Part shown: in pieces, positions 6,011 through 19,176 of the stretch
Layout: every line of letters starts with the position of its first letter
Position numbering within the stretch: the stretch's first letter is position 1
IMG/VR virus record: IMGVR_UViG_3300046028_003840
Coordinates: 1-33,671 of that record
Strand: one strand, 5' to 3'
Length of the DNA: 33,671 nt
DNA from: a virus
Position numbers and translations under genes: made by a program
Notes under the pieces: model-generated
What the model was told of the DNA's origin: nothing
The model's input: the letters and a program-made list of their open reading frames with translations, nothing else
The model's database searches: none

Positions 6011-6495
6011 CGTATTTGCAAATTACGATTAGATTTAATTGAACATCCCGAAATAAACATACCACTTTTTAAAGCATCTTTAATCTTAAATTTATCCGCA
6101 GTTTCAGTTAATTTAATAGTTTTAAACTCATTAGGCAAGTCATTAACATCACTAACCTCAACACTTTCAGAGTTTCTAAATGAAATCTTAATTAAAGGCG
6201 TTTCAATTTTATTTACATCAAAAGTTAGCATAGCTAGTTCAATAGTATCTTTTAAACGCTGAATTGTTTTTTCTCTCGATTTCTTAGCTTGTTGCAATCG
6301 TTTTATTTCATTATCGATTATATCCATTTCGCCATCAAATTGCTTAGTTATGTAGGCATAGTTTTCAGACTTTGAATGAAAGTTATCTTTATTAATTTGC
6401 AAAGCTAATTCTATTTCTGGAGTTAACTCGCCACCATTTTCTATTAATTCATTTACTAATAGTTGGTATTCATGTTGAATGTTAAATATGTTCAT
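6007..6495 (-). CDS. Siphovirus Gp157-family protein
   Basis: The product has 162 residues. The N-terminal third is helical (residues 1-45), followed by a long coiled coil (about 50-92, DNEIKRLQQAKKSREKTI) and a compact C-terminal domain with DLPNEFK, KLTETADKFKIKDALKSG and CSIKSNRNLQIR. The order of coiled coil, P-EF/Y and K..LK.G....G....  ..L.IR is that of the Gp157 family (Pfam PF05565), commonly found beside single-strand annealing proteins in phages. The exact function is unsettled; a recombination role is inferred from neighbours. It is the last gene of the leftward operon and overlaps the ERF gene by one base. Confidence 0.8.
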   Translation of the reverse strand: MNIFNIQHEYQLLVNELIENGGELTPEIELALQINKDNFHSKSENYAYITKQFDGEMDIIDNEIKRLQQAKKSREKTIQRLKDTIELAMLTFDVNKIETPLIKISFRNSESVEVSDVNDLPNEFKTIKLTETADKFKIKDALKSGMFISGCSIKSNRNLQIR

Positions 6496-7040
6496 TATTT
6501 CAAAGTTGCTTTTAGTTTATCTTTTAATTCTATTACTTCTGTATTAGCCATTTCTAATTTAGGCAGTGATTCATAAACTTGTTTTAATTCTGAAAGTGTC
6601 TTAACAACAATTAGTTTAGCTTTTGCTCCTTCAATATCTATTGTTGGTTGTTCAACTTTTATAGCTGGCTTTTGACTATCAGCATCACTTTCAGTTTCAT
6701 CAATTAAGAATAAACCATTTAAAGCATACTTACGAGCGTAACTTGATGCCGTTCCAGTTGCCTGTTCAGCACTCATGCCTTTGTGTTCTGCTAATTCTGC
6801 ATAACCATTAGTCCATTGGTTAAATTCACCAATATAAATAGATGCAGTTGCTTTTAAGAATACCTTATTGCCAATAGCTACTATTTCATCACTAAGCGTT
6901 AAGGTAGCATTATATTTTAAAAGAATAGGTTTAACAGCTTCTAATATATCCTCGGCCGAGCGATATTTGTACTTACCAAAAGCGTTTACATTTTCTTTTG
7001 GTACTTTTAATTCGTTTTGAATTTTTACTAAATTTTCCAT
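6495..7040 (-). CDS. erf: ERF-family single-strand DNA annealing protein
   Basis: The product has 181 residues. ERF-type proteins bind single-stranded DNA, anneal complementary strands and drive phage recombination. The hallmark parts are visible: YKYRSAEDILEAVKP near residues 24-38, a central beta region, and GMSAEQATGTASSYARKYAL followed by NGLFLIDE (about 88-115). The remaining 60 residues are a charged, probably flexible tail with a short helix. It lies between a 25-codon leader frame and the Gp157 gene, under the promoter at 7142-7171, and forms a recombination module with the small OB-like protein at 7161-7421. Confidence 0.9.
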   Translation of the reverse strand: MENLVKIQNELKVPKENVNAFGKYKYRSAEDILEAVKPILLKYNATLTLSDEIVAIGNKVFLKATASIYIGEFNQWTNGYAELAEHKGMSAEQATGTASSYARKYALNGLFLIDETESDADSQKPAIKVEQPTIDIEGAKAKLIVVKTLSELKQVYESLPKLEMANTEVIELKDKLKATLK

Positions 7041-7043
7041 GTT

Positions 7044-7121
7044 TTATAATATAAGAAATCCCCAACTCGATAGCCCTACCACAGGCGTTTCAAATTGAGG
7101 ATTAATGGTTAATTTTTTCAT
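7044..7121 (-). CDS. 25-residue leader peptide upstream of ERF
   Basis: A 25-codon frame (MKKLTINPQFETPVV, then GLSSWGFLIL) starts just after the promoter and ATACTACC leader and ends three bases before the ERF start. Spacing and position make it a plausible translated gene or leader peptide whose translation is coupled to ERF. It has no recognised domain; the hydrophobic end (WGFLIL) is its only striking part. Confidence 0.5.
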   Translation of the reverse strand: MKKLTINPQFETPVVGLSSWGFLIL

Positions 7122-16229: not shown

Positions 16230-16259
16230 AATAAATTAGGATATTAAAAAACAATTTAC

Positions 16260-16267
16260 TATCTTTG
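16260..16267 (+). promoter_or_regulatory. Promoter -7 element TATCTTTG of the structured RNA
   Basis: TATCTTTG is a full TAnnTTTG match. It lies in the 141-base gap after the methyltransferase and would start transcription at about 16272, right at the first hairpin. The -33 region (TTAG) is weak. Confidence 0.6.
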
Positions 16268-16271
16268 TTAA

Positions 16272-16360
16272 AGCATAGGGCATTATGCAAATATAAAAAA
16301 TTAACATTAAACCTATTGGTTAGTAGTCATGCCCGACGAACACCGATAGGTTTTTTTATT
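16272..16360 (+). ncRNA. Structured small RNA or attenuator with complementary 6-base loops
   Basis: Hairpin 1 has stem GCATA/TATGC (16273-16277 and 16284-16288) with loop GGGCAT. The 3' hairpin is a 12-base-pair stem with one G-U pair (16309-16320 with 16342-16353). Within its 21-base loop, GTC/GAC closes a 6-base apical loop ATGCCC (16329-16334). The two 6-base loops are perfectly complementary, so they could kiss. A run of seven T follows the second stem. With the promoter at 16260 this gives an RNA of about 85-90 bases, or a 5' attenuator ahead of the replication genes. I do not match it to a named RNA family. Confidence 0.65.
16309..16357 (+). terminator. Intrinsic terminator before the replication operon
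   Basis: The stem AAACCTATTGGT (16309-16320) pairs with ACCGATAGGTTT (16342-16353), followed by a T run (16351-16357). Only 13 bases separate it from the ATG at 16371, leaving no room for another promoter, so downstream genes probably need read-through. Confidence 0.8.
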
Positions 16361-16370
16361 TAAAAAAATT

Positions 16371-16538
16371 ATGAAAATTTATTTACAAGATTTAGAAATT
16401 GAAAAAAAAGAAACAGGAATTGAAATATATTCTGAATCAGATTTAATTATTTTAACTTCTGTTTATGATGGAGAAGTTCAAATGGTTTGTGAAATTAGTT
16501 TAAGCGAGTTACAACAAGCAATTAAATTACTTAAATAA
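16371..16538 (+). CDS. 55-residue protein heading the replication operon
   Basis: The frame MKIYLQDLEIEKKETGIEIY, then SESDLIILTSVYDGEVQMVC, ends EISLSELQQAIKLLK. It is the first gene after the terminator at 16309-16357 and overlaps the initiator start by one base (TAATG). It looks like a small alpha/beta protein; no family is recognised. Confidence 0.65.
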   Translation: MKIYLQDLEIEKKETGIEIYSESDLIILTSVYDGEVQMVCEISLSELQQAIKLLK

Positions 16539-17395
16539 TGGCAAGGCAACAACAAAATACAGTCGATTATTTTCCATTTCTTTGTAAGGAAGGAGAAGCT
16601 ATGTTCTACATTGAAAATAAATATGGTAATGATGGTTATGCTACTTGGATTAAAATTTTAAGACAATTAGCAGTTACTAATTATCATTATTTAAATTTAT
16701 CTGAGTATAAAACTATAATGTTTTTAAGTTCAAAATGTAAAGTAGATGAAAAATTATTACTTGAAATAATAACAGATTTATGTAATATTGGAGAATTTAA
16801 TAAACAACTTTGGGAACAAAATAAAATTATTTATAGTGAAAAGTTTATTGAAAATATTAAAGATGCTTACTCAAGAAGAAAAAACGAATGTATCAATCTG
16901 CATACATTATGTATACATTTAAACACTTTAGGCGTTCAATCTGCATACATATTGAATCAAAATGTATACACAAAGCCACAAAGTGTAGACATAAATACGC
17001 ATAGTATAGTAGAGTATAGTATAGTAAAGGATATTAAAGTAAAAGATAATAAAGAAAATGATATAAATATATCTTTTGATGTTTTTTGGAATCTTTACAA
17101 TAAAAAAATTAATTCTAAGGATTGTGAAAGTAAATGGAATAAATTAAAAGATATTGATAGGCAGAAAATAATTGATACATTGCCAAACTTTTTAAATTCA
17201 ATAACAGATAAACAATACCAACCGCATCCAATTACATATCTTAATCAAAAACGTTGGAACGATGAACAAAGCAATACAATTAAAAAAGAATATGAACTTT
17301 ATTCTCAAAATGGAACTATTAAAATGAATTTAACAGAAATTGAATTAATTGAAAAAAAGAAAACAGGATTTTACAAAGAAAAACACGAAATATAA
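16538..17395 (+). CDS. Replication initiator (Lin1244/DUF4373-like N-terminus)
   Basis: The product has 285 residues. The N-terminal domain opens with DYFPFLCKEGEAMFYIENKY and GNDGYATWIKILRQL, the pattern of the DUF4373/Lin1244 winged-helix domain found in phage replisome organisers. A linker of about 55 residues (115-170) is encoded by repeat-rich DNA. The C-terminal part (FDVFWNLYNKKINSKDCESK, then HPITYLNQKRWNDE) resembles the DnaD-like or helicase-loading tail of these proteins. The likely role is to melt the origin and recruit the helicase encoded next. The origin itself may lie inside this gene, as in lambda O. The gene overlaps both neighbours by one base. Confidence 0.75.
   Translation: MARQQQNTVDYFPFLCKEGEAMFYIENKYGNDGYATWIKILRQLAVTNYHYLNLSEYKTIMFLSSKCKVDEKLLLEIITDLCNIGEFNKQLWEQNKIIYSEKFIENIKDAYSRRKNECINLHTLCIHLNTLGVQSAYILNQNVYTKPQSVDINTHSIVEYSIVKDIKVKDNKENDINISFDVFWNLYNKKINSKDCESKWNKLKDIDRQKIIDTLPNFLNSITDKQYQPHPITYLNQKRWNDEQSNTIKKEYELYSQNGTIKMNLTEIELIEKKKTGFYKEKHEI
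16893..17030 (+). other. Candidate replication origin: iteron-like repeats in the initiator gene
   Basis: TCAATCTGCATACAT occurs at 16893-16907 and 16936-16950, each followed by ATGTATACA (16909-16917 and 16962-16970). After them AGTATAGTA occurs three times (17003-17011, 17013-17021, 17018-17026), and AT-rich DNA follows. The repeats encode the initiator's linker. Direct repeats inside an initiator gene plus AT-rich DNA are the usual architecture of a theta-type phage origin. Confidence 0.5.
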
Positions 17396-19176
17396 TGGCA
17401 GATTTAAAAGTAATTAACTTAGCAGATAAAAAAGAATATATCATCGACGTACATAAAAATGGAGAAAATCAAATGGTTTGCCCTGAATGTTCAGCAACTC
17501 GTAAAAAGAAAACAGATAAATGCTTTTCTTTTAACCTTAACAAAGGAGCTGGACGTTGTAACCATTGTGGAATTGTTTTAGTAGAAAATAAACCATTCGA
17601 ACCAAAACGCATACAAATTGAATTTAAGCGTCCTAAAATAGTTGAATCAAGTAAATATACTGATAACTGTTTAAAGTTCTTTAAAAGTCGTTTAATTAGC
17701 GAAAAAACGTTATTAGAGTTAAAAGTTACAGAAGCAATTGAATGGATGCCAAATGCAAGGGCAGAAATACCAACAATTCAATTTAACTATTTTCGTAATG
17801 GAGAATTAATAAATATCAAATCTCGTGGCAAAAATAAAGACTTTAAACTTTTTAAAGACGCTGAATTAATTTTTTACAACCTAGACGCCACTATCGATAA
17901 TGAAACAATTATTATTTGTGAGGGCGAAATGGATGCCTTAGCAATTTATGAATGTGGTTTCAAAAATGTTATATCAGTTCCTAACGGTGCAGGATTAGGT
18001 AAAATAAACTTTGAATACTTAGATAATTGTATTGATTCTTTTTCAGATAACACAAAGTTTTTATTAGCACTCGATAATGACAAAGCGGGTTTAAACTTAC
18101 AAAATGAATTAGCAAGGCGTTTAGGCTTTGAAAATTGTAGTAAAATAACTTTTAAAGATTGTAAAGATGCAAACGATTGTTTAATTAAATACGGAATGAA
18201 AGCAGTTATTGATTTAATTAACGATGCTAAAGAGTTTCCAATTGTAGGTGTATTTAACGCCTTAGATATTGAACGTGACATTTACGAATATTATAACAAC
18301 GGTTTGCCATCAGGATGTGGAATTGGAGTTGGTGAAATAGATATGCATATTAAGTTCCAAGAGGGTTATTTAACAACTATTACTGGTATTCCAGGACATG
18401 GTAAAAGTGAGTTCTTAGATTTTCTTTTATGTAGGTTAAACATTTCGCATGATTGGAAAACAGCTTTATATTCTCCTGAAAACCATCCTTTAGAATTACA
18501 TTTTAGTAAGTTTGCTGAAAAAATTAGTGGAAAACCATTTGAAGGAACTAACCGATTAAGTCCTATTGATTTAAAAAATTTAATTGAATATCATGCTAAA
18601 AATTTCTTTTTTATTAATCCCGAAAATGATTTTACTTTAGACAATATCCTAGCCGCGGTTAGGCAATTAGTTCGTAAAAAAGGTATTAAAGCATTCGTTA
18701 TTGATGCGTGGAATAAAATAGACCATAAATATACAACTAATGAAACTAAATACATTTCAGAACAATTAGATATTATAACTAGATTTTGTGAAATAAATAA
18801 AGTACATTGTTTTTTAGTTGCTCATCCTACTAAGATACAAAAGGATAAGGCTACTGGTAAATATGAAATACCTAACCTTTATTCAATTAGTGGTTCAGCT
18901 AACTTTTACAATAAAACAGCTAACGGTATAACAGTTTACAGAGATTATGAAACAGGTATAACTGAAATATACGTTCAAAAGGTTAAGTTCAAACATTGGG
19001 GACAAACAGGTTGTATTAAAATGGCATGGGACAAAACAAATGGTAGGTACTATAAAGGAACTCCAAGCTATGAAAGTTGGATTAATAATATTGAAGCTAC
19101 AAAACAAATTGATAATACCAACTTTTTAAATGAAACAAGCGACTTAATTAATAATAATATAGAAAATCCATTCTAA
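17395..19176 (+). CDS. Primase-helicase, T7 gp4/Twinkle type
   Basis: The product has 593 residues. It unwinds DNA at the fork and makes RNA primers. The N-terminal zinc site uses Cys29/Cys32 (CPEC) and Cys55/Cys58 (CNHC). The TOPRIM primase core has ICEGEMDA (about 174-181) and LLALDNDKAG (about 222-231). The DnaB-like helicase domain has Walker A GIPGHGKS (331-338) and Walker B AFVIDAW (433-439), then LVAHPTK and the end motifs. No phage DNA polymerase is present in the window, so the host polymerase must finish the replisome. The gene starts on the last base of the initiator stop. Confidence 0.92.
   Translation: MADLKVINLADKKEYIIDVHKNGENQMVCPECSATRKKKTDKCFSFNLNKGAGRCNHCGIVLVENKPFEPKRIQIEFKRPKIVESSKYTDNCLKFFKSRLISEKTLLELKVTEAIEWMPNARAEIPTIQFNYFRNGELINIKSRGKNKDFKLFKDAELIFYNLDATIDNETIIICEGEMDALAIYECGFKNVISVPNGAGLGKINFEYLDNCIDSFSDNTKFLLALDNDKAGLNLQNELARRLGFENCSKITFKDCKDANDCLIKYGMKAVIDLINDAKEFPIVGVFNALDIERDIYEYYNNGLPSGCGIGVGEIDMHIKFQEGYLTTITGIPGHGKSEFLDFLLCRLNISHDWKTALYSPENHPLELHFSKFAEKISGKPFEGTNRLSPIDLKNLIEYHAKNFFFINPENDFTLDNILAAVRQLVRKKGIKAFVIDAWNKIDHKYTTNETKYISEQLDIITRFCEINKVHCFLVAHPTKIQKDKATGKYEIPNLYSISGSANFYNKTANGITVYRDYETGITEIYVQKVKFKHWGQTGCIKMAWDKTNGRYYKGTPSYESWINNIEATKQIDNTNFLNETSDLINNNIENPF

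Follow-up and report, generated by a model that had tools for sequence, protein, structure and literature searches.

The DNA analysed here, a stretch of 33,671 nucleotides from the viral record IMGVR_UViG_3300046028_003840 (the window), carries directly before its replication genes a predicted RNA of approximately 85 nt, encoded at about 16272-16357, in which the loop of a 5' hairpin kisses the apical loop of an intrinsic terminator. The feature belongs to a large family, much bigger than one locus, that is carried by phages of Flavobacteriia and related Bacteroidota. The RNA structure and its position before a start codon are well supported by the comparison of related sequences. We assume, with a probability of roughly one half, that the unit is a promoter-proximal leader that would attenuate the transcription of the early DNA-metabolism operon of the phage and would also release a compact RNA of about 85 nt. 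We also propose, tentatively and with somewhat more reserve, a new class of Bacteroidota phage RNA: a terminator close to the promoter would have its apical loop bound by the start of the transcript, either as a kissing hairpin or as free sequence, and the stop ahead of the early DNA-metabolism genes would then hinge on a tertiary contact whose letters diverge freely. The argument is carried by covariation counts, a swap control, a genome-wide control and the frequency of the unit at primase-helicase loci.

The first-pass annotation had described a promoter box, a hairpin 1, two exactly complementary six-base loops, a terminator hairpin and seven T, and all of these elements are present (Table 1). 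In Flavobacterium psychrophilum, the sigma-A box TAnnTTTG sits at -12 to -5 (PMC9723704), thus the start is predicted at 16272 and hairpin 1 would begin at +2. The minimum free energy fold of the window RNA is the nested structure (-23.4 kcal/mol, z = -3.8, 0 of 200 shuffled sequences as stable). A terminator scan missed the hairpin because the maximum loop of the scan was 8. The internal loop UUAGUA/GAACA resembles a bulged-G motif (AGUA/GAA; sarcin-ricin type). It is conserved within type A (units L073, L074, L076 and L087), and similar internal loops are present in the F. columnare phage FCL-2 (L197, near 17676) and in the consensus of the Rfam family RT-14.

Table 1. Coordinates of the two leader units and the adjoining genes in the window
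Feature	Position	Strand	Remarks
-7 promoter box TATCTTTG	16260-16267	+	Bacteroidota sigma-A type TAnnTTTG
Hairpin 1, GCATA 16273-16277 / TATGC 16284-16288	16273-16288	+	read from sequence and fold; compensatory stem changes in related groups
Loop 1, GGGCAT	16278-16283	+	5' arm of kissing helix
Linker	16289-16308	+	A/T-rich, single-stranded
Terminator hairpin, 12-bp lower stem 16309-16320 / 16342-16353	16309-16353	+	from fold
Internal loop, 5' side TTAGTA	16320-16325	+	opposite GAACA 16338-16342
Apical mini-stem, GTC 16326-16328 / GAC 16335-16337	16326-16337	+	presents loop 2
Loop 2, ATGCCC	16329-16334	+	3' arm of kissing helix
U-run of intrinsic terminator, seven T	16351-16357	+	13 nt to next ATG at 16371
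First downstream ORF, 55 aa	16371-16538	+	no Pfam or PHROGs match
Replication initiation protein	16538-17395	+	Lin1244_N, phrog_2562
DNA primase/helicase	17395-19176	+	Toprim, DnaB-like C-terminal part; phrog_239
Second unit, class II	7137-7053	-	precedes Erf gene; predicted start 7137
-7 box of second unit TATATTTG	7149-7142	-	
Free 5' segment CTACCAC	7130-7124	-	complementary to GTGGTAG 7082-7076, apical part of terminator hairpin
Terminator hairpin arms of second unit	7102-7095 / 7065-7058	-	
Tail TTTCTT	7058-7053	-	
Leader ORF, 25 codons (MKKLTINPQFETPVVGLSSWGFLIL)	7044-7121	-	runs through terminator of second unit
Erf-like ssDNA-annealing protein gene	6495-7040	-	phrog_155; downstream of second unit

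Relatives were gathered by searches with the replication initiation protein and with the primase-helicase, which led to viral contigs, and a script identified hairpin loops whose complement sits in the apical loop of the following terminator. A loose scan for units returned mostly noise from coding regions, and stricter versions were used in its place. Seventy-two leaders were curated from viral contigs, Bacteroidota genome contigs and isolated phages of Cellulophaga, Flavobacterium, Tenacibaculum and Olleya; they present 47 different pairing sequences of 6-10 bases each. Complementarity of 100 % within the units is by construction, since it was a search requirement. With this number of different exact complements among the relatives, a chance match of the loops is excluded, and the loop pair noticed in the window is confirmed as real. 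The arms are mostly 38-48 nt apart, and the kissing sequences have a GC content of 59 % compared to 30 % in the surrounding regions. When loop 1 and loop 2 were taken from different units, a match of at least 6 occurred in 2.0 % of 4996 pairs. A strict scan of 945 kb on both strands yielded 12 units, against 3 from the reversed or complemented sequences that served as controls; of the former, the unit in phage P12002L is doubtful because no ORF or ATG follows. Sixty-five primase-helicase loci have 900 bases or more ahead of them; they are not independent, because many are near duplicates, and 59 of them have a unit: 47 were found by the script, eight more were added (L122, L123, L127-L131, L139) and four were read by eye, namely L090 with one G-U pair, L096, L120 and L145, the last two of which the script confirmed as exact.

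Cultivated phages are among the carriers. In Cellulophaga phages phi10:1 and phi19:1, Flavobacterium phage tooticki6-1 and Tenacibaculum phage JQ, the RNA occupies the intergenic space ahead of the genes that lead up to the primase; in Flavobacterium phages morran9-1, snusmum9-1 and mumin6-1, Olleya phage Harreka_1 and Cellulophaga phage Nekkels_1, it precedes replication or helicase genes. The strict genome-wide scan also detects Flavobacterium phage 11b, Riemerella phage RAP44 and FCL-2, and gave no match in crAss001 (first 79 kb), B124-14, phi38:1 (40 kb) and phiST. Comparison to phage records by blastn revealed no close isolate for the window RNA or for L039.

Compensating changes in the two loops between relatives, which the first-pass annotation had named as support for its reading, were found many times. 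In the type B alignment of 16 sequences (A2), 99.1 % of the cells are standard pairs, compared to 37-53 % when the partner is slid by 1-3 columns. All 112 cells of its 7-bp kissing helix hold a pair; four of the seven pairs vary, each with both partners exchanged, and a change of a single partner does not occur. The refuting case named in the annotation, relatives that retain the terminator but lose loop complementarity, was looked for, and the reading withstood this test. Among four closely related Muminvirus/Lillamyvirus isolates, three of eight kissing pairs are changed on both sides, and in the window group GGGCAT/ATGCCC has become GTGCAT/ATGCAC in L074. The nearest relatives, L005-L008, keep the promoter DNA of the window nearly letter for letter, while their RNA bodies are unrelated and their loops differ, yet are complementary. 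The loops are TTCGGG/CCCGAA in L006 and GTAGGAG/CTCCTAC in L007; other relatives have CTGGAAG/CTTCCAG (L004) and GTCGAAG/CTTCGAC (L003). The exchange point lies exactly at the promoter in near-identical phages (window 16230-16267, L006 2358-2391, L007 2500-2532). A DNA-level operator in form of an inverted repeat was rejected, because each arm lies in a loop with its own covarying stem.

The annotation had treated one locus and had missed the second unit of the window, on the minus strand, as well as all other units with a free 5' end. In this class II the hairpin 1 is lacking and a free 5' segment pairs with the terminator loop instead; the fold of the window's class II unit has -22.4 kcal/mol (z = -3.2). 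Pairing starts at the predicted +1 in L120, L142, L161 and L166. Usually an ATG directly follows the 5' pairing segment and opens a leader ORF (L120, L126, L142, L147, L155, L166 and the window), which crosses the terminator in L126, L142, L155, L166 and the window unit. To judge from this arrangement, the leader ORF suggests a coupling of translation to termination. Class I and class II occupy the same place, because the Erf gene of the relative G005 is preceded by a unit of class I (GTAGAGA/TCTCTAC; L211), and we infer that both classes share one job. L166, on a contig filed as Candidatus Staskawiczbacteria, has a Bacteroidota-type promoter and a class II unit before a primase-like gene; it is probably a mis-binned phage contig.

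The terminator lies between the promoter and the first gene, the layout of an attenuator. In 72 of 72 units, an ORF starts 4-56 nt past the U-run, in most of them 8-24 nt, so that there is little or no room for a second promoter and transcripts of the operon must read through the terminator. The dependence of replication on read-through, stated by the annotation from the 13 bases in the window, is supported. The first downstream genes tested code mostly for replication initiators or primosomal proteins, DNA helicase, recombinase (Erf), ParB-like proteins and endonuclease. Several genomes have two units with different loops (L125, L138, L140, L149, L086, L126), the upstream one preceding helicase, ParB-like, endonuclease or unknown genes. 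Between terminator and first gene, about 46 bp are conserved in Cellulophaga phage phi10:1 and Flavobacterium phages of Muminvirus/Lillamyvirus (L148 10339-10384, L149 12737-12782). The annotation had left the choice between a free-standing RNA and an attenuator or riboswitch. A cis-acting leader is favoured because all units end so close before an ORF; a ligand-binding riboswitch is unlikely, given that the types have hardly any sequence in common. The types share architecture, not sequence; conserved unpaired pocket nucleotides were not found across them, and the conserved letters of the internal loop are confined to type A.

In the attenuator that we prefer, transcription would begin at about 16272 and hairpin 1 would be the first element to fold. 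Its loop would catch the apical loop of the terminator hairpin as this emerges from the polymerase, and the kiss would stabilize the mini-stem of three base pairs and help the terminator to close. Most polymerases would stop in the U-run and release an RNA of about 85 nt, a compact pseudoknot whose two ends are base-paired, whereas those that read through would allow the expression of the replication initiator and the primase/helicase. Some factor presumably alters the read-through during infection; the released RNA is probably stable, and the kiss may drive or tune termination. The apical stem alone is weak, with a free energy of -1 kcal/mol or above in 39 of 72 units, and pairing of the loops contributes about -8.8 kcal/mol (median), hence the proposal that the contact aids the terminator and ties termination to the 5' end. 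Since neither kissing arm is part of the terminator stem, the kiss and termination can go together; as the kiss does not compete with that stem, this is not a classical attenuator with mutually exclusive folds. A sensor, an antiterminator protein or a conserved alternative fold were not found.

The covariation fits equally to a trans-acting RNA or a stabilizer of the mRNA. One of the two main rivals, rather unlikely, is that the terminated RNA itself is the product: a stable small RNA would target RNA or protein of the host or the phage in trans and use the kissing fold as its scaffold, and the gene would be reached by read-through or from upstream. An own promoter box and terminator, a compact pseudoknot with paired ends and several genomes with two units of different loops agree with such a role, and IsrK of Gifsy-1, described as a short terminated RNA with a read-through mRNA (PMC4825925), offers an analogue. 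However, no unpaired seed is conserved across types, almost only the shape is kept, and the fixed position close to a start codon in 72 of 72 units is needless for a free RNA gene. The other main rival, which we consider improbable, is that the leader stabilizes or translationally gates the replication mRNA; the pseudoknot would hide the 5' end, a hairpin would stand 8-20 nt ahead of the ATG, and termination would be secondary. The 5' end is sequestered in both classes, several class II units pair from +1 on, the distance to the ATG is short and constant, and class II has usually a leader ORF adjoining the pairing segment; but intrinsic terminators normally look just like this, a GC-containing stem with a U-run directly behind it, and most transcripts would be expected to end there. 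A U-run was a scan requirement, so that its universality is partly built in.

An RNA-based immunity or incompatibility, comparable to CI of P4, C4 of P1 or plasmid RNAI, appears very improbable. The hypervariable loops would confer specificity, and RNA made by one phage would target, in trans, the emerging leader of another phage whose loops are identical. The loops are indeed hypervariable and GC-rich, the near-identical phages of the window, L006 and L007 carry exchanged RNA bodies downstream of one and the same promoter, and in P4 the leader precedes the replication operon, as it does here. But both pairing partners reside in one molecule, and the opposite strand shows no clear excess of promoter boxes (16 versus 11.1 expected), which argues against an RNAI-like antisense gene. 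That the virulent phage FCL-2 (PMC8092290) has a unit argues against immunity as an obligatory function. Hardly credible is a part of the replication origin, in which the transcript would prime DNA synthesis and the arms would matter as DNA or as primer structure: the unit adjoins replication initiator and primase-helicase genes in most phages, but second copies are located ahead of Erf, helicase, ParB-like and HNH genes, and the covariation of the stems including G-U pairs points to RNA.

The control of early genes in phages of Flavobacteriia, abundant marine and freshwater bacteria, is little known. One RNA architecture before replication and recombination operons, present in cultivated phages, makes this control directly testable. 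It would exemplify an RNA family that models built on sequence cannot see, since nearly all but the pairing diverges, and a terminator whose loop joins a tertiary contact.

The window contains no Rfam family at its cut-off, including the curated family for P4 CI / C4 RNA. The families of a large survey of candidate structured RNAs of 2017 are reportedly contained in Rfam, which this search covered. The best match below threshold in a search with 221 bases was RT-14 (RF02921; 32.1 bits versus a cut-off of 48.1, E = 0.0056). It shares with the window RNA the internal loop UUAGUA ... GAA in its terminal hairpin, while the remainder of the match is promoter DNA; RT-14 had no match in L002-L009 and none in 395 genomes of the class; since the controls gave no match either, the scan of the 395 genomes carries no information. 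Skipping-rope (RF02924), a small RNA of about 80 positions that is also reported from phages (PMC8501573) and was considered because of two hairpins with paired loops, was rejected, with no match in the window, none reaching the cut-off of 36.7 bits in 17 phage records and 9 genomes, and none in the 395 genomes or in the controls. In contrast to the window RNA, it has an outer closing stem around its hairpins and a conserved GGAAA..GGcagCC.

No earlier description of this RNA was found in the literature searched, and it gives the impression of a widespread RNA switch or small RNA that is so far undescribed; its parts have counterparts in several known systems. The CI RNA of P4 and the C4 RNA of P1 and P7 are small RNAs from the leader of a phage replication operon and cause premature termination before the replication genes. 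They pair with separate leader sites and serve immunity, whereas here both partners are in one RNA of 85 nt and a virulent phage is among the carriers. RNAI and RNAII of ColE1 and other kissing loops of 7 bases have fully paired hairpin loops of 6-7 bases, hypervariable with complementarity kept and adjoining replication functions; here, in contrast, the kiss is within one transcript and an antisense gene was not found. The put RNA of HK022 is structured, stands at the start of early phage transcripts and controls termination. It is conserved in sequence and acts on RNA polymerase before distant terminators, whereas the leaders described here keep only their shape and include the terminator in the fold. 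For IsrK of the Salmonella prophage Gifsy-1, the published account, as far as drawn on here, describes no kiss between a loop and a terminator loop kept across relatives, and phages, hosts and downstream genes differ (PMC4825925). As described there, IsrK is nevertheless alike in being a phage RNA with own promoter and terminator that heads a phage transcript, a short terminated RNA and a read-through mRNA arising from one locus.
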